DNA of 64,000 nucleotides from Salinicola halimionae (lineage in GTDB: Bacteria > Pseudomonadota > Gammaproteobacteria > Pseudomonadales > Halomonadaceae), in the NCBI RefSeq assembly GCF_003206065.1, contig NZ_PZJQ01000002.1, forward strand, positions 131,321 to 195,320, written 5' to 3'. The stretch's first letter is position 1; every line of letters begins with the position of its first letter. The notes under the pieces are model-generated. The model made no database searches and was not told the DNA's origin. It worked only from the letters and a program-made list of their open reading frames with translations. Made by a program: the position numbers and the translations under genes. This document shows, piece after piece, positions 13,713-64,000 of the stretch.

Positions 13713-13718
13713 AGTGGT

Positions 13719-13903
13719 GTTTCCTGGAGTGTGCGCCAGTCATAACAGTCCCTCGAGCCTATGCGCAGTACCCAGGGGGCCAAATGCTAGGCAGGCCCGT
13801 GTGCATGTCCGCGCGACGGAAAGCCTGAAGGCTTGCCTGCGGCCACCCACCTTGAACCAGTAGGTTCAGGGCCAGAATGACAGCGGCACTCTGGGGAACT
13901 CTC
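13719..13903 (+). ncRNA. ssrS: 6S RNA (ssrS)
   Basis: About 185-nt RNA that binds the sigma-70 holoenzyme as an open-promoter mimic in stationary phase. The 5' end (TTCCTGGAGTGTGCGCCAG) pairs with the 3' end (GCGGCACTCTGGGGAACTC) to close the long rod. The conserved segment CACCTTGAACC...GGTTCA lies near 13848-13868, as in E. coli 6S. Position between zapA and ygfA is the conserved one. The 3' strand overlaps the start codon region called for ygfA. Ends are approximate. Confidence 0.92.
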
Positions 13904-41336: not shown

Positions 41337-41340
<4 letters not shown>

Positions 41341-43409
41341 GCATGGCAGTCAACACCCTACTGATCGAACTGGGCGTCGAAGAGCTGCCGCCAGGCGCTC
41401 TCGCCAACCTGGCGTCCGCCCTGCGTGACGGCGTCATCAAGGGTCTCGACGACGCCGAGGTTCCCCATGGCGAGGCATACGCCCTCGCCTCCCCGCGGCG
41501 CCTTGCCGTGCGCATTGCGGCGCTCGCCGACAAGCAGCCGGACCGTGAAGTCGAAAAACGCGGGCCCGCCCTGGCCGCCGCGTTCAAGGATGGCCAGCCC
41601 ACCAAGGCGGCCCAAGGTTTCGCCCGCTCCTGCGGCGTGGCGGTGGACGAACTGATTCACCTGGAGACCGACAAGGGCACCTGGCTCGGCTACCGTGAAC
41701 AGCAGCAGGGAGACAACGTCGAGACGCTGCTGCCGGCGATCGTCAGCGCCGCTGTCGATGCCCTGCCGGTGCCCAAGAACATGCGCTGGGGCGCCTCGCG
41801 TATCGAGTTTTCGCGTCCGGTCCACTGGCTGGTGCTGCTTTACGGCGATCAGATCGTGCCGGCCAGCGTGCTCGGCCTGAAGTCCGGCCGCACGACACTG
41901 GGACACCGCTTTCACGCGCCGGCGCCGATCGAACTTGCCCACGCCGACGACTATGAAGCCGCACTCGAAAACGCCTACGTGCTGGTGGATCTGGAGCGCC
42001 GCCGTGAGCGCATTCGGGAGCAGGTACTGGCCGAGGCCGAAGTTCAAGATGCCCAGGCGGTTATCGACGAGGATCTGTTGGAAGAGGTCAACGGTCTCGT
42101 GGAATGGCCGGTGGCGCTGACGGGTACATTCGATGAGCGCTTCCTCGAGGTGCCCGCCGAGTGCCTGATCTCCTCGATGAAGGCCAACCAGAAGTATTTC
42201 CACCTGCTCGATGCCGACGGCAAGCTCAGGCCACAGTTCATCACCGTGGCCAACATCGACAGCGAAGATCCGCAACAGGTCATCTACGGCAACGAAAAGG
42301 TCATTCGCCCCCGCCTGGCCGACGCGGCGTTTTTCTTCGAGATCGATCGCAAGCAGACGCTGGAAGCTCGGCGCGAGTCGCTGGCCAATGTCGTCTTCCA
42401 GCGCGAACTGGGATCGCTCGCCGACAAGGCCGCCCGCAGTGAAGTCGTCGCTCGGTTCATCGCCCGCAAGATCGACGGCGACTCCCAGGCGGCCGCGCGC
42501 GCGGCCCAATTGGCGAAATGCGATCTGGTCACGGAGATGGTGCTCGAGTTCCCCGAACTGCAGGGCATCATGGGAACCTATTACGCGCGCCACGATGGCG
42601 AGCCGGAAGACGTGGCGGAAGCCATTCACGAGCAGTATCTGCCGCGCTTCGCCGGCGATGTCATTCCCCAGACACCGACCGGCCAGGCACTCGCGCTGGC
42701 CGACCGTCTGGATACGTTGACGGGAATCTTCGGTATCGGCCATCGCCCTACCGGTGCCAAGGATCCGTTTGCCCTGCGCCGCGCGACCATTGGCGTGCTG
42801 AACATCCTGATCAAGGGCGAGCGGGATCTCGATCTGCGCGAATTGCTGGAACTGGCCGCATCCCAGCACCGCGACCTGCCCAAGGCCGAAGGTCTGATCG
42901 ACGACGTGCTGACCTACATGCTCGACCGCTTTCGTGCCTGGTCGCAGGACGAAGGCTTGCCGGTCGACGTCTATCTGGCGGTACGTGCTCGCCCGGTGAC
43001 ACGGCCGCTGGATTTCGCCCGCCGTCTGCGCGCCGTGCATCGTTTCAGCCAGCGAGAGGAAGCCGCAGCCCTGGCAGCGGCCAATAAGCGCGTTTCCAAT
43101 ATACTGGCCAAGCAGCAACACGACGGCAGTACCCAAGTGAAAGAGGACCTGCTCGTTGAAGACGCGGAAATCGCCTTGGCTAACACCGTGACCGATTGCC
43201 GCGATCAGGTCGAGCCGCTGTTTCAGGAAGCAGACTATGCGCAAGCCCTGGATATTCTCGCCACGCTGCGTGCGCCGGTCGATCGCTTCTTCGACGAGGT
43301 GATGGTTGCCACTGACGACTCCGCCATCCGCGCCAACCGTCTCGCGCTTCTCGCCAGTCTTCAGGCGCTGTTTCTCGAAGTGGCCGATATCGCTGAACTA
43401 CAATCGTGA
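41337..43409 (+). CDS. glyS: Glycine--tRNA ligase beta subunit
   Basis: Beta subunit of glycyl-tRNA synthetase, needed for tRNA recognition. The 690-aa protein begins [22 protein letters not shown] and includes [34 protein letters not shown] and [20 protein letters not shown], with an HD-like and anticodon-binding C-terminal region ([20 protein letters not shown]). It overlaps glyQ by ATGA and is followed, inside its 3' untranslated region, by a parS site and then a rho-independent terminator. An ATG two codons later (41343) is equally possible as start. Confidence 0.96.
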
Positions 43410-43417
43410 TTCTCGCT

Positions 43418-43433
43418 TGTTTCACGTGAAACA
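43418..43433. other. parS site 1 (ParB-binding)
   Basis: TGTTTCACGTGAAACA, a perfect 16-bp palindrome identical to the general bacterial parS consensus. It lies 9 bp after the glyS stop and one base before the terminator stem. Confidence 0.9.
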
Positions 43434-43434
43434 T

Positions 43435-43460
43435 ACGCCCGGCTTTAAGCCGGGCGTTTT
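43435..43460 (+). terminator. Rho-independent terminator of glyQS
   Basis: Stem ACGCCCGGC / GCCGGGCGT with loop TTTAA, followed by TTTATT. It directly follows parS site 1. Confidence 0.88.
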
Positions 43461-43532
43461 ATTCCAATCTGCATTTCATAGCTGCTGGACCATGCCTAAA
43501 GCCACAACTTCTAGCCCCTAGCAGTCGCATAG

Positions 43533-43548
43533 TGTTCCACGTGAAACA
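43533..43548. other. parS site 2 (ParB-binding)
   Basis: TGTTCCACGTGAAACA, one base from a perfect palindrome and a known parS variant. It lies between the glyS terminator and the decayed glycosyltransferase frame. Confidence 0.9.
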
Positions 43549-43618
43549 TCGTAGCCACCTCTGAGCGAGTCCAGTCAGCTATCCTGCAGGGACACGCCTC
43601 ACGCGTCGCTAGACCTCG

Positions 43619-43975
43619 ATGCGAACCTCGAGAACGAACTCGCTTTCTCCTGATCTAAGGCCAATAGAAGCTATCGAAGCTTACGATACCGATCCAGTCG
43701 TGAAGCGTAACGATCAAGGAGACTCAATTGAATTCGGTCCGCCGACAGCACACTTATCCGCGTGCCCGCGATTTTACTTCGGCATACCGCTACGCTCTCG
43801 GCAGGCCTGCTTCGATTGGTCACTGGTTTGCCGCAATCTCGAGCGAACACTGCTTTCAATGTACCGAGGCAGGAAAGGCGTTATAGGTAAGTATGTTCGA
43901 CGCTCTCTGATCGAGGATCCTGACGGGATCTCCAAGCTCATAGCGGATTACCCTCAGCTCTCCGAATTTCTTTGA
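43619..43975 (+). pseudogene. Decayed glycosyltransferase fragment (hypothetical 118-aa frame)
   Basis: An open frame of 118 aa whose middle, RFYFGIPLRSRQACFDWSLV followed by CRNLERTLLSMYR (about residues 52-83), resembles the first strand and helix of a GT2-like glycosyltransferase, where the residue order IPL-R-W-x-V...L-x-TL-x-S is typical. The expected nucleotide-sugar site is missing: the frame jumps to RGRKGVIGKYVRRSLIEDPDG and stops. The first 50 residues show no family similarity. I therefore read it as an internally deleted remnant; it could also be a small gene of unknown role. No good ribosome site precedes it. It lies between parS sites 2 and 3. Confidence 0.4.
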
Positions 43976-44105
43976 GTCAGCGAATAATGTTGTCCCGCTA
44001 TCAAGTCACATACTCGACCGGCGTCGCCGCAAGGGGCGCAATGGAATGAAGCACGATCGATGAGATTTCTTTTTAGTTCTCCTTTCCAGTATCTTGATGA
44101 CAATT

Positions 44106-44121
44106 TGTTTCACGTGGAACA
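44106..44121. other. parS site 3 (ParB-binding)
   Basis: TGTTTCACGTGGAACA, the reverse complement of the site 2 sequence. It lies about 87 bp upstream of the gmhB start codon. Confidence 0.9.
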
Positions 44122-44207
44122 CCCCTCTTCGCACGTGAGGTTTGAGTCGGAGTGATATTGTTCGTCGCCCTACACTGTTCTTCACCCTCTCTTTCAGGAC
44201 CTCTCCG

Positions 44208-44747
44208 ATGACCGGACTCGTGATTCTCGATCGTGATGGCGTCATCAATGAAGACTCCGACGCCTACATAAAATCTCTCGAAGAGTGGCGGCCATTGCCC
44301 AACGCCATCGAGGCCATGGCTCGTCTTTACAAAGCCGGATGGCAAGTAGCGATCGCCACCAACCAGTCTGGCATCGGCCGCGGCTATTATGATCTGGACA
44401 CGCTGCACGCCATCCACCGCCGCCTCACCGACCTGGTGGAAAGTGCTGGCGGTAGCATCGCCATAATCGCCTACTGCCCTCATCGACCCGATGAGGGCTG
44501 CGATTGCCGGAAGCCCAAACCGGGAATGTTGTTACAGATTCAACGATCTCTAGGTTTCGAGTCATTGGAAAACAGCTGGATGGTTGGCGATAGTCTGCGA
44601 GACATTCAGGCCGGCCTAGCTGCAGGCTGCCATACCGCGTTGGTTGGAACAGGGAACGGTGCCGATACCCCGGCCAATCTACCTCGATCCATCAGCCCTG
44701 ACTGGCTCTGTGAAGATCTTGCCGAGTTTGTCGACCGTCTGATCTGA
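44208..44747 (+). CDS. gmhB: D-glycero-beta-D-manno-heptose 1,7-bisphosphate 7-phosphatase
   Basis: HAD-family phosphatase that removes the C7 phosphate in ADP-heptose synthesis, between the two HldE reactions. The 179-aa protein has the nucleophile motif LDRDGVINED (Asp8, Asp10), ATNQSGIGRG (motif II), and the zinc-binding loop CPHRPDEGCDCRKP (Cys90, His92, Cys98, Cys100), plus GDSLRDIQAG (motif IV). ATG 44208 has CAGGACCTCTCCG upstream; the open frame extends to 44142 but without a ribosome site. It stands apart from the LPS island, beside glyS as in several gammaproteobacteria. Confidence 0.94.
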   Translation: MTGLVILDRDGVINEDSDAYIKSLEEWRPLPNAIEAMARLYKAGWQVAIATNQSGIGRGYYDLDTLHAIHRRLTDLVESAGGSIAIIAYCPHRPDEGCDCRKPKPGMLLQIQRSLGFESLENSWMVGDSLRDIQAGLAAGCHTALVGTGNGADTPANLPRSISPDWLCEDLAEFVDRLI

Positions 44748-44814
44748 TCCAACAGCGTCGCTGGTTCTTTCCTGAATCCACAATGGCTCGAAATCCGGGT
44801 CGAACCCCACGAAT

Positions 44815-44830
44815 TGTTTCACGTGAAACA
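44815..44830. other. parS site 4 (ParB-binding)
   Basis: TGTTTCACGTGAAACA, perfect palindrome identical to site 1, in the 207-bp gap between gmhB and the AsmA-family gene. Confidence 0.9.
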
Positions 44831-44954
44831 CAACTGGCTCTCGTGCGCCTTTCTGCTACGTCAGCGAGCCATCGGGCCAGTGAGCGAGCAGGGCGACGTT
44901 CCTCTCCCCCTCGACTATCCTTGAATTCTTCACCACGAAACTTGGGATAGCGTG

Positions 44955-47018
44955 ATGACTCAAGGAAAGAGGATTGGCGTTTGGGTCCTAGCCATCGTAA
45001 TACTACTCATGGCCGCACTGGTCATCATCGTAGCCACCTTTGACTGGAATCGGCTGAAGCCGACGATCAATCAACATGCAAGTGAAGCGCTGAACAGACA
45101 GGTCTCCATCGATGGCGACCTGGACGTCAACTGGCTGTGGCCCTCGGGTGACGGCGGTTGGCGGCACTGGTTTCCCTGGCCAAGAATTCATGCCGAAGAC
45201 ATCCGTATCGGTAGTCCCAGCGAGGTTACCGATGCAGATCTCGTCAGTTTGAAGGCCATTGATATCACCCTCTCTCCACTGCCGTTGTTCGCAAAGACTC
45301 TCTCTGTGCCTGCTATCGCTCTGAACGGTGGGGAAGCAACACTCATGCGCTTGGAGGACGGTCGCAATAATTGGACATTCGACCTCGGTAGCAACGACCA
45401 GAAAGATCAAGCGAAGGATGAAGGTTCGAAAGAAAATGGCTGGACAGTCGATGTCGGGGCCATCGATTTCGATCCCATCGATGTGCATTATCGAGATGCG
45501 ATATTGGCGGCCAATATCGATGCCACGGTCCAGCTGCTAGGCAAACCCATCGCATTCAAAGAGCTGACTGGCGATGATAGCGCCGTCAGCCAGACCGAAG
45601 GCCAGCAGATCAGCGATTACCGTTTTGGTTGGAAAGCTGAGGGGACCTATCGCGAACAACCATTCTCTGGCTCGGGGAAGCTGGGTGGTCCAGAGGCGTT
45701 CAAGCGTCGGGGTGTTCCGTATCCCGCTCAGGCCGAGATAGATGCCGGGGATACCCAAGTCGCGGTCAACGGTACGATAACCGACCCGCTATCGCCGCAA
45801 GAAATCGATATGGACCTCAGTTTCTCGGGCCAGAACCTGGGCGCTCTCTACGACATCATCGGCGTGACCTTGCCCGATACGCCACCTTATTCCACTCGAG
45901 GTCATCTCACTGCCAATCTAGGTACGCAGGATGCACTCTCATTCCGCTATCGTGATTTTGATGGCCAGATCGGTGATAGCGATATCCATGGCGATCTTAC
46001 CTACCGAATGGGCGAACCGCGCCCTTTGCTCAAGGGCGAAGTCATCTCGCAACAGCTGCGGTTCGCCGATCTCGCGCCGCTGATTGGTGCTGACTCTAAC
46101 GCTAAAAAGGCCGACCGAGGTGAAACCAACAGACAGCCAGATGATAAGTTGCTTCCGGTCGAAGCATTCGATGCGGCCCAGTGGAAGACCATGGATGCGG
46201 ACGTGAAGTTCACCGCCAAACGTGTCGAGCACGGTGACTCTCTCCCTCTCGAAGACATTTATACCCACGTCAGATTGGATGATGGAGAGATTCTGCTGGA
46301 CCCACTGCGGTTCGGCATCGCGGGAGGCAACCTCAATACCACCTTACGTCTCGACGGTAGCCAGACACCGATGCAAAGCCGGGTGGACATGCACATTCGG
46401 CATCTCATGCTGAGCCGCCTGTTCCCCGACGTCGAGCTGATGGATAACAGCCGAGGAGAACTCAACGGAGACGCCACTCTCAGTGGTACCGGAAACTCGG
46501 TCGCGGACATTCTAGGCAGCAGCAACGGCGACCTTCAGATGTTGGTCAATGAAGGCCTGATCAGCCAGAACCTGATGGAGCTGGCCGGGCTCAATGTGGG
46601 TAACTACGTGGTCGGCAAGTTGTTTGGTGATGAACAGGTGAAGATCAACTGTGCGGCAGCCAATTTCAATGTCACTGATGGGCTGGCCAAGACGCGCTTC
46701 TTCCTGATCGATACAGAAAACGCCTTGGTCAAGATCGATGGTACCGCCAACTTTGGTAACGAAGCGCTGGATTTGACTATCGAACCGGAGAGCAAGGGAG
46801 CTCGCGTCTTCACGCTACGTTCACCGCTTTACGTCAAAGGAACCTTCAAGAATCCTTCACCCGGCGTGGACACGGGGTCTTTACTGGCGCGAGGCGCTAT
46901 CGGTGCATTTCTGGGCACCGTGGCGACCCCGGCTGCAGCACTGCTGGCGCTAGTATCACCAAGCGCGGATGGAAAAACCCCGTGCAATGATTTCTTGAGC
47001 CAGATCCAGACAGACTGA
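44955..47018 (+). CDS. AsmA family protein
   Basis: Envelope protein of 687 aa. One N-terminal transmembrane segment (about 7-27, GVWVLAIVILLMAALVIIVATF) is followed by a chorein-N-like domain and a long beta-rich periplasmic region, ending with an AsmA C-terminal domain (GTANFGNEALDLTIEPESKGA near 592, LRSPLYVKGTFKNPS near 620). AsmA-like proteins bridge inner and outer membranes and are implicated in phospholipid transport and outer-membrane homeostasis. I chose ATG 44955 rather than the GTG one codon before it. It is flanked by parS sites on both sides and has somewhat more A/T than neighbouring genes. Confidence 0.88.
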   Translation: MTQGKRIGVWVLAIVILLMAALVIIVATFDWNRLKPTINQHASEALNRQVSIDGDLDVNWLWPSGDGGWRHWFPWPRIHAEDIRIGSPSEVTDADLVSLKAIDITLSPLPLFAKTLSVPAIALNGGEATLMRLEDGRNNWTFDLGSNDQKDQAKDEGSKENGWTVDVGAIDFDPIDVHYRDAILAANIDATVQLLGKPIAFKELTGDDSAVSQTEGQQISDYRFGWKAEGTYREQPFSGSGKLGGPEAFKRRGVPYPAQAEIDAGDTQVAVNGTITDPLSPQEIDMDLSFSGQNLGALYDIIGVTLPDTPPYSTRGHLTANLGTQDALSFRYRDFDGQIGDSDIHGDLTYRMGEPRPLLKGEVISQQLRFADLAPLIGADSNAKKADRGETNRQPDDKLLPVEAFDAAQWKTMDADVKFTAKRVEHGDSLPLEDIYTHVRLDDGEILLDPLRFGIAGGNLNTTLRLDGSQTPMQSRVDMHIRHLMLSRLFPDVELMDNSRGELNGDATLSGTGNSVADILGSSNGDLQMLVNEGLISQNLMELAGLNVGNYVVGKLFGDEQVKINCAAANFNVTDGLAKTRFFLIDTENALVKIDGTANFGNEALDLTIEPESKGARVFTLRSPLYVKGTFKNPSPGVDTGSLLARGAIGAFLGTVATPAAALLALVSPSADGKTPCNDFLSQIQTD

Positions 47019-47035
47019 CCTGGGAAGATGCGGAT

Positions 47036-47051
47036 TGTTTCACGTGGAACA
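47036..47051. other. parS site 5 (ParB-binding)
   Basis: TGTTTCACGTGGAACA, same sequence and orientation as site 3, 18 bp after the AsmA-family stop codon. Confidence 0.9.
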
Positions 47052-47059
47052 CTGCGGCA

Positions 47060-47075
47060 CGTTCCATGTGGAACA
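47060..47075. other. Degenerate parS-like site 6
   Basis: CGTTCCATGTGGAACA lies 24 bp from site 5 (start to start). It differs from a consensus variant at the first base and at the central C, so binding would be weak. Confidence 0.45.
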
Positions 47076-47328
47076 TCACAATCTCGTTTGGGAGAGAAGA
47101 CGACTTGCTGTAACCAACCAGCGGCGCTTGAAGCCCCCGCTGCCTCCAAGCTGTAGCTCACTTTGGTCGACCAGCAGGCTAAGAGTATTGGCTGGCGACC
47201 CGGCCGGTCCCACAGAGAATGGCCGGGCTTGACTGCATGATGACGGCCAGCGGTGTCGGCCAAAATGGCTAGAAGAGACGAACCGCTGTGACAAAAACCA
47301 ACACGCAGCGGGTTTCGGAAAGAAAGGA

Positions 47329-47727
47329 CTATCGCGAATTTTGCTCGTACTGCTTGCCTAGCGATTCCAGAGCACCAATGATCTTCTCGATCTCGGCGTC
47401 GAAGCGGTGTTGTTGCTGAGCGTAGAAATGACGCGTATACGATGCGCCTTTGTGCTTATCCACCAGATGAGAAAACTGCGATTCCAGCTGCTCGGTGTGA
47501 TAGCGCAACCGTTCGGTAAGAAACTCTGCCTGACCTTGGTGGCAAGCCACGTCCATCAATGCCCTCACCTGGACCGTCAACAGATAGAGCTGCAGGACAT
47601 TGCGTTCCTGAACTTCTTTCTGCGTGGAAACACTATCATCCAGCAGATTGATCGAACTCATCTGACAGCAGCCGGTATCGTCAGTCAGCGGACGATCCTG
47701 AACCGCTTTCTCCTGAGTCTGCAGCAT
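47329..47727 (-). CDS. Hypothetical protein, 132 aa, helical
   Basis: A 132-aa soluble protein of unknown function, predicted mostly alpha-helical, with no signal peptide or membrane segment. Recurrent polar heptad-like runs (VQERNVLQLYLLTVQVRAL near 40, then LTERLRYHTEQLESQFSHLVDKH near 71) suggest a coiled coil or helical bundle. A strong ribosome site (AAAAGGAGGG, seven bases before the ATG at 47727) argues that it is translated. It sits between the parS cluster and an aldehyde dehydrogenase gene and is divergent from the latter. I do not recognise it. Confidence 0.68.
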   Translation of the reverse strand: MLQTQEKAVQDRPLTDDTGCCQMSSINLLDDSVSTQKEVQERNVLQLYLLTVQVRALMDVACHQGQAEFLTERLRYHTEQLESQFSHLVDKHKGASYTRHFYAQQQHRFDAEIEKIIGALESLGKQYEQNSR

Positions 47728-47926
47728 GGTCAGACCCTCCTTTTAAGTCGCTGAACCCTCCGGTTCATACTACCACTGCGATTTATTGTCACCGTTCGCC
47801 ATTGGTCGAAGCACCAAGCCCACGACAGAGGAGGTCGCCTAAAGCGTAATGGCAGGCATTCGTTCAGGAGCGCAAATTGGTAGAGAAATCCAGCGATCGG
47901 CTACCGATCCATCAGGAGAGCTCATC

Positions 47927-49447
47927 ATGCGTTACGCCAACCCCAATACTTCGGACGCCATCACCCGGTTCGAGAAACGCTACGACAACTACATCGGCGG
48001 TGAGTGGGTACCGCCGGCCGAGGGGCGATATTTCGACAACATCACCCCAGTCACCGGCGAAGTGTTCTGCGAAGTTGCTCGGTCAAGTCAGAAAGATATC
48101 GATACGGCACTGGACGCGGCCCACAAGGCCGCGCCCGGCTGGGGCAAGACATCCGTTCAGGAACGTTCGTCCCTGCTTCTCAGGATCGCGGATCGCATGG
48201 AACAGAACCTGGAAATGCTGGCCGTGGCCGAAACCTGGGACAACGGCAAGGCCGTGCGCGAAACGCTGGCCGCCGACATCCCGCTGGCGATCGACCACTT
48301 CCGCTACTTCGCCGGCTGTATCCGCGCCCAGGAAGGTACCGCTGCCGAGATCGACGAGAACACGGCCTCCTATCATTTCCATGAACCACTCGGCGTGGTC
48401 GGCCAGATCATACCCTGGAATTTTCCGATCCTGATGGCGACCTGGAAACTGGCGCCGGCGTTGGCCGCGGGTAACTGTGTGGTGCTAAAGCCCGCCGAGC
48501 AGACACCGGTTTCGATCTTCAAGGTCATCGAGGTCATCCACGACCTGCTGCCCAAGGGGGTCATCAATATCGTCAACGGGTATGGCGAGGAAGCGGGCCA
48601 GGCGCTGGCCTCCAGCAAGCGCATCGCCAAGATCGCTTTCACCGGCTCCACTCCCATCGGCTCGCACATCATGAAGTGTGCGGCCGAGAACATCATTCCT
48701 TCCACCGTGGAGCTCGGCGGAAAGTCGCCGAATATCTACTTCGAAGACATCATGTCAACGGAGCCCGAGTTCATCGATAAATGCGCCGAAGGCTTGGTGC
48801 TGGGCTTTCTCAACCAAGGCGAAGTTTGTACCTGCCCGTCTCGCGCCCTGATTCAGGAGAGTATCTACGACGACTTCATGGCCAAGGTCATCGAGCGGGT
48901 CAAGAAGATCAAGCGCGGCCATCCGCTGGATACCGAAACCCAGGTCGGTGCTCAGGCCTCGCAGGAACAGTTCGACAAGATCATGTCCTACATGGACGTG
49001 GCACGCGAGGAAGGGGCGGAGTTTCTGTCCGGTGGCGAGCGGGAATCCCTCGGCGACGATCTATCGCGGGGTTACTACATTCAGCCGACGCTGTTGAAGG
49101 GTAACAACAAGATGCGCGTGTTCCAGGAGGAGATTTTCGGGCCGGTGGTCTCGGTGACGACATTCAAGGACGAAGCGGAAGCGCTGGCCATCGCCAACGA
49201 TACCGAATTTGGTCTGGGCGCCGGTGTCTGGACCCGCGACATCAATCGCGCCTACCGCATGGGTCGCGGCATTCAGGCCGGCCGCGTATGGACCAATTGC
49301 TACCATCAGTATCCGGCCCACGCTGCCTTCGGCGGCTACAAGAAGTCTGGTGTGGGGCGAGAGACTCACAAGATGGCGCTGGAGCATTATCAACAGACCA
49401 AGAATCTGCTGATTAGCTACGATATCAATCCGATGGGCTTCTTCTAA
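47927..49447 (+). CDS. NAD(P)-dependent aldehyde dehydrogenase (AldB/ExaC type)
   Basis: Oxidises aldehydes, probably acetaldehyde, to carboxylic acids. The 506-aa protein has the nucleotide-binding [21 protein letters not shown] segment, [11 protein letters not shown], the catalytic base Glu262 in VELGGKSPN and the nucleophile Cys301 in [11 protein letters not shown]. This NQGEVC pattern with an adjacent Cys is that of the AldB/ExaC/AcoD group used in ethanol and acetoin oxidation, which is family knowledge rather than a test. I use ATG 47927, with CAGGAGAGCTC upstream; an open extension to 47849 exists. A hairpin follows. Confidence 0.92.
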
Positions 49448-60910: not shown

Positions 60911-63328
<2,418 letters not shown>

Positions 63329-63344: not shown

Positions 63345-64000
63345 TCATTCCGAATACAGCCGTCCGCCGGCGAGTTGCGATGCCACCACGTCCGTGTCTG
63401 GCTGCCAGACGTCGGCCAGCGCCTCGCGATCGACGCTGGTGATGAAGACCTGGCAGTTGAGCTGCTCGAGCCATTGGCAGAAGATCCGCCGATGGTCGCC
63501 GTCGAGTTCCGCCGGCAGGTCATCGATCAAGTAAAGACAGGTGCGGCCACTCGACTGTTCTAGCAGCTGTCCCTGGGCAAGCTTCAATGCGCTGACGACC
63601 AGCTTCTGCTGGCCGCGCGAAAGCACTTCAACCGCCGCATGTCGCCCGACGCGAATACGCAGGTCGGCACGCTGTGGCCCCTGCTGGGTAAAACCCATCT
63701 GGCGATCGGTATCGCGTCCGGTCTCGAAAACCTCCAGCAAGGCGCGCTGGCGATCCCAGCCCCGCGAGTAGCGCAAGGTCAGATCCGGTAACGGCAACAG
63801 CGCCGCCAGGGTCTTCTCGAAAACCGGCGCGAAGCGCGCCATATAGCCCTCGCGCAGGCTATCCAGACGCTCGCTCCAGTGCGCCAGTTCACGCTCCCAG
63901 ATACGTATCGACTGAACATCGATTCTATCATGCCTGAGCAGCGCATTCCGATGTTTCAAGGCCCTTCTGACGCGTTTCCAGCCGTCCAGAAAGTCCTGTT
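63345..64000 (-). CDS. recF: DNA replication and repair protein RecF (5' end cut by window edge)
   Basis: ABC-type ATPase that with RecO and RecR loads RecA at single-stranded gaps. Only the C-terminal part is present: the frame is open through position 64000 and the N-terminal Walker A region lies beyond the window edge. The visible part begins WKRVRRALKHRNALLR, and contains SRGQQKLVVSALKLAQ (ABC signature region) and CLYLIDDLPAELD (Walker B and D-loop). The ABC signature is intact. It lies upstream of gyrB in the conserved dnaA-dnaN-recF-gyrB order, so the origin region is probably just past the window end. Confidence 0.93.
   Translation of the reverse strand, partial: QDFLDGWKRVRRALKHRNALLRHDRIDVQSIRIWERELAHWSERLDSLREGYMARFAPVFEKTLAALLPLPDLTLRYSRGWDRQRALLEVFETGRDTDRQMGFTQQGPQRADLRIRVGRHAAVEVLSRGQQKLVVSALKLAQGQLLEQSSGRTCLYLIDDLPAELDGDHRRIFCQWLEQLNCQVFITSVDREALADVWQPDTDVVASQLAGGRLYSE

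Follow-up and report, generated by a model that had tools for sequence, protein, structure and literature searches.

Does a group of 16-bp palindromes around the gmhB gene of a Salinicola chromosome form its centromere, and is that centromere laid out as in related bacteria? The palindromes lie in the 64,000-nucleotide stretch analyzed here (the window, C4:131321-195320 of a Salinicola assembly of 3,991,304 bases in 11 contigs; family Halomonadaceae), and they resemble parS, the binding site of ParB. As set out below, a motif cluster beyond chance, its clustering at the scale of the genome, its conservation in intergenic DNA and the genes for the cognate proteins together lead us to predict, with little doubt, that the group is the ordinary chromosomal centromere of a Salinicola species. 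Its layout differs from that of most relatives because the pair of parS sites that they carry inside recF is absent, which could not be seen from the window alone.

A compact cluster of parS sites

A first-pass annotation of the window had listed five parS sites and a sixth, degenerate one, and all six were recovered with the letters that it gave. They lie between glyS, gmhB and the gene of an AsmA-family protein (asmA hereafter), at C4:174.7-178.4 kb in genome coordinates:

43418..43433, no strand: parS, perfect palindrome, starting 8 bases past the glyS stop
43533..43548, no strand: parS TGTTCCACGTGAAACA, second in the glyS-gmhB gap
44106..44121, no strand: parS TGTTTCACGTGGAACA, 86 bp upstream of gmhB
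44815..44830, no strand: parS, perfect palindrome, in the gmhB-asmA gap
47036..47051, no strand: parS TGTTTCACGTGGAACA, directly after asmA
47060..47075, no strand: degenerate parS CGTTCCATGTGGAACA, 2 mismatches to TGTTYCACGTGRAACA, second member of a close double site

The cluster sites are 16-bp palindromes of the TGTTNCACGTGAAACA type, as befits a ParABS centromere. When up to 3 mismatches to TGTTTCACGTGAAACA were allowed, the matches in the window were exactly the five cluster sites, while dinucleotide shuffling of the window, repeated 100 times, produced 0.11 matches on average and never more than 1. The statement that the window holds no site elsewhere stood at this threshold and needs amending only for a decayed remnant in recF, which starts at window position 63997, crosses the window edge (locus L085) and has 2 mismatches to TGTTYCACGTGRAACA and 4 to the palindrome of the first-pass annotation.

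In the whole assembly, 9 places matched with up to 3 mismatches, against 1 for a reversed control pattern. Eight of these 9 were on contig C4, within the 219 kb from 79.5 to 298.2 kb, and the ninth was a 3-mismatch match on contig C6. With at most 1 mismatch to TGTTYCACGTGRAACA, the genome contained seven sites, five of them in the cluster. No second group of sites with up to 3 mismatches was found in the assembly, the remaining places being single and spread (outlying C4 sites at 79.5, 114.4 and 298.2 kb). An even distribution of the motif, named beforehand as the outcome that would speak against a centromere, was not what this genome-wide search returned: the sites cluster in the origin region, as a centromere should.

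Conservation of the sites across Salinicola

We compared 18 Salinicola genomes, the window's own and 17 relatives, all of which carried gmhB and showed the same order glyQ-glyS-gmhB-asmA (18/18 loci). The gaps scored (glyS-gmhB, gmhB-asmA and 500 bp downstream of asmA; 30,443 bp in sum) contained 61 exact sites, 92 with up to 1 mismatch and 97 with up to 2, when only 0.02 were expected at the last threshold from letter-shuffled gaps. Inside the three genes glyS, gmhB and asmA (83,820 bp of coding sequence over the same genomes), there was no site with up to 2 mismatches. The 18 genomes had 117 sites with at most 1 mismatch, 92 of them in the cluster; among the 25 outside it, only the two of the window's genome were inspected.

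At a tolerance of 2 mismatches, every locus had a site no more than 90 bp from where glyS ends, two to four sites in the glyS-gmhB gap and exactly one in the gmhB-asmA gap. In the aligned 130 bp after asmA, the first parS was the sole block conserved in all 18. A second site after asmA was present at 24-41 bp in 10 loci, including the window, and at 236-458 bp in four, and none was seen in the other four. Since a second site recurs there in relatives, we take the one at 47060 as a genuine, weaker member of the cluster. Conservation of this kind is what a centromere leads one to expect.

Cognate partition proteins and a proposed mechanism

A single ParB-family match was detected in the genome, at C4:231.5 kb, and the gene before it encodes a ParA-superfamily protein whose best model (NF041546, at 2.8e-35) stayed below its cut-off. 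In Caulobacter ParB, R173 and G201 set parS specificity and are described as conserved in ParB and changed in Noc (PMC7383237, in excerpt). Alignment with Caulobacter ParB (6t1f), with residue positions counted by hand, showed that both are kept in the Salinicola protein, that T179 is replaced by L and that A184 is likewise A. The chromosome encodes, then, a cognate ParB with the parS-specifying residues and a ParA, the latter assigned by superfamily match only. SMC (C7:449.8 kb) and ScpA (C7:198.8 kb) are also encoded, both over their cut-offs. The genome-wide clustering, the 18 Salinicola loci, the ParB residues and the SMC and ScpA genes support the centromere that the first-pass annotation had proposed.

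In such a centromere, as the excerpted ParB literature suggests, ParB dimers would load as CTP (cytidine triphosphate)-dependent clamps at the five good sites and weakly at the sixth. Loaded ParB would then slide onto glyS, gmhB and asmA to give one partition complex, which ParA would move to the daughter cell halves and which would recruit SMC-ScpAB.

Other functions considered for the palindromes

Being palindromic and intergenic, with one copy just upstream of gmhB, the sites might belong to another regulator or act as terminators, a possibility to which we attach very little weight. The motif is exactly parS, and the terminator-like hairpin that follows glyS (43435-43457) is separate from the parS site there; terminator-like hairpins were, moreover, no commoner than in shuffles (2 versus 3.7). 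The same motif is also embedded in the recF codons of most relatives sampled, a location at odds with both a terminator and a promoter operator, and on these two grounds, the separate hairpin and the recF copies, the terminator or operator reading was rejected. It is equally hard to credit the sites as Noc-type (NBS) nucleoid-occlusion sites, for which we see practically no room. Noc and ParB are paralogues whose motifs are related (PMC7383237); however, the genome has that single ParB-family match, with R and G instead of Q and R at the discriminating positions, and the sites carry the parS consensus. As no ParB-like protein with Q and R was found, this reading was rejected too.

A third proposal, that the cluster serves mainly as a ParB-dependent silencer of gmhB, asmA and glyS while partition relies on other sites, draws on Pseudomonas aeruginosa, whose ParB is described as repressing the promoters adjoining parS3 and parS4 (PMC5521831, in excerpt). 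We consider it highly improbable, as the assembly offers no other group of sites on which partition could rely, and local repression would be a side effect of a centromere and not an alternative to it.

Position relative to the replication origin

The cluster lies 19-24 kb from dnaA (C4:197.2-198.7 kb) and 13.8 to 19.9 kb from gyrB and recF, which agrees with the 14-20 kb noted earlier. The cumulative GC skew, computed over 495 kb of C4, reached its minimum at C4:229 kb (L087), near mnmG-parAB, about 30 kb beyond dnaA and about 50 kb from the cluster. Over 199 kb of a complete relative (G005), the minimum was likewise found by mnmG-parAB (near coordinate 0.8 kb, L274). Because of this skew minimum, the Salinicola origin may lie near mnmG-parAB rather than beside dnaA. 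DnaA-box-like sequences (up to 1 mismatch) numbered 6 in 600 bp at 227.4 kb of the window's own genome, the top of 1,648 windows, versus 3 at 199.0 kb; in G005, the dnaA side had 7 and the mnmG side 5.

Some of these results weigh against the centromere prediction. The DnaA-box counts of the two genomes disagree; a distance of 52-58 kb separates the cluster from parAB, and one of about 50 kb separates it from the origin if the skew minimum marks it. Such a distance exceeds the 3-15 kb at which parS1-4 of P. aeruginosa stand from oriC, yet it falls well inside the zone of about 650 kb around oriC within which parS is reported to function there (PMC5098823, in excerpt). The distance between cluster and origin thus comes to about 20 to 55 kb, with the cluster on the gyrB side. 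On that scale only does the earlier placement near the origin hold; it had been reached by way of dnaA and gyrB, whereas the skew minimum points to mnmG-parAB.

Absence of the recF sites from Salinicola

We also analyzed recF, which in P. aeruginosa contains parS1 and parS2 (PMC5521831). Among 56 genomes from the other Halomonadaceae genera, 42 had both recF sites with up to 1 mismatch, 9 had one of them and 5 had neither. Outside the family but within the order, six genomes were analyzed, namely those with listed places among 21 searched and hence not a random sample. Five of them had both sites; in the remaining one (G049) the first was present and the contig ended at the second position. 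The first site mostly encodes VFHVKH or VFHVEH. By contrast, none of the 18 Salinicola recF genes had a site with up to 1 mismatch at either position, so the Pseudomonas-type pair is missing from the genus. At the first position, the window's genome differs from parS by 2 mismatches and the other Salinicola by 3-7; the second position was unrecognisable (best 6-7 mismatches).

In a recF tree built with the site codons removed, the 18 Salinicola formed one supported clade inside a supported group of 53 rows, of which the other 35 all had two sites. The tree came from a quick search without bootstrap, took five of the six other-family genomes and has long branches among the outgroups. The simplest account is a single loss of the recF pair before the genus radiated.

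Gene order around the locus has changed as well. Of the 23 loci from other genera, 17 have gyrB at 0.1-3.5 kb from gmhB and 6 have it outside the stretch read, whereas asmA, exaC and further genes separate the two in the window. The distance between gmhB and recF was 12.2-21.7 kb in the 17 Salinicola genomes with both on the same contig; in G013 they are on different contigs. A plausible though tentative account is that the ancestor of the genus gained a block of genes between gmhB and gyrB (here 16 kb, including asmA), that both parS sites in recF decayed and that the centromere became an intergenic-only array located after glyS, before gmhB and on both sides of asmA. The genus-wide absence of the recF pair is new beyond the first-pass annotation, and a genus-level relocation of this kind would be the one uncommon feature of the locus.

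A general rule, under which separation of gmhB from recF always goes with loss of the recF sites, was tried and is only a lead. With genomes labelled separated or adjacent per genus from gene coordinates, none of the seven separated genera kept both recF sites (the 18 Salinicola have none; among 9 other genomes, 6 have one and 3 none), and 42 of 47 genomes with adjacent gmhB and recF kept both. On the recF tree, this amounted to 3 supported independent pairs (5 over all branches), with a sign-test median p of 0.5. Counter-cases were G067 and G081, adjacent without a recF site, and G023 and G025, adjacent with one.

Two genomes of the family showed another arrangement, in which exact or near-exact parS sites were dispersed and not clustered, over about 80 kb in G033 (C12:6.6-88 kb, partly L103) and over about 330 kb in G031 (C1:1167-1498 kb, partly L101 and L255).

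Gene context and additional observations

Profile models matched the flanking genes that the first-pass annotation had named (glyS, gmhB and the AsmA-family gene), and also gyrB and recF:

41337..43409, + strand: glyS, glycine--tRNA ligase beta subunit (TIGR00211)
44208..44747, + strand: gmhB, HAD-family heptose bisphosphate phosphatase (NF006506 over cut-off)
44952..47018, + strand: AsmA-family protein gene (PF05170 over cut-off)
60911..63325, - strand: gyrB, 16.2 kb from gmhB
63345..64000, - strand: recF, truncated by the window end (TIGR00611 over cut-off)

The gmhB product fell under the cut-off of the other GmhB model (TIGR00213), and the AsmA-family protein far under that of the NCBIfam AsmA equivalog model. 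Near full-length asmA homologues (47-55% identity) were found in 6 of the 56 other-genus Halomonadaceae genomes, always outside the glyS-gyrB interval, and partial ones (28-35%) in 7; homologues also occur in Sodalis, Serratia and Paraburkholderia, among others. This survey did not support asmA as a simple recent import along with its parS. The asmA homologue of G032 is preceded by a parS-like site about 75 bp upstream.

A single TGTTTCCCGTGAAACA, whose letters are those of a listed Thermus thermophilus parS (PMC7022226), lies about 60 kb from the cluster at C4:114408 (L003 1501-1516), within a 2-oxo-tetronate isomerase gene (NF043033 over cut-off); the homologous gene of G018 has a parS-like site offset by 14 codons. 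The G+C content of the parS region (window 43000-48000) is about 55%, below the roughly 62% of most of the window. A 6S RNA gene is located at window 13718-13901 (Rfam RF00013).

Comparison with known systems

These results place a likely centromere for Salinicola. They also offer a natural case of centromere turnover, in which a recF-coded parS pair kept by P. aeruginosa and most sampled Halomonadaceae was shed. An excess of ParB in P. aeruginosa is reported to reduce expression around parS1-4, including gyrB (PMC5521831). If it took place, the relocation would move the ParB complex away from the dnaA-dnaN-recF-gyrB operon, and Salinicola could serve to test whether ParB nucleation within the replication operon matters. 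Among the matches listed for parS with Salinicola, Halomonas, Halomonadaceae or recF, in a collection that covers few subscription papers, no title or abstract dealt with the Salinicola case.

The other Halomonadaceae resemble Salinicola in that a site with up to 1 mismatch is present in the glyS-gmhB gap or in the 200 bp past gmhB in 14 of the 23 loci, each of which represents one genus; they differ in that most keep the recF pair and gyrB near gmhB, and Salinicola neither. With parS1-parS4 of P. aeruginosa, where any single one is described as enough for segregation (PMC4368675, in excerpt), the locus shares a ParABS system and a small number of 16-bp parS sites, clustered together on the side of dnaA where gyrB and glyS lie. 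P. aeruginosa has four sites, whereas the Salinicola window has five good ones, all of them intergenic, and lacks the recF pair; as to parS3, one source places it in an intergenic region (PMC5521831) and the other within coding sequence, with parS4 alone intergenic (PMC4368675).

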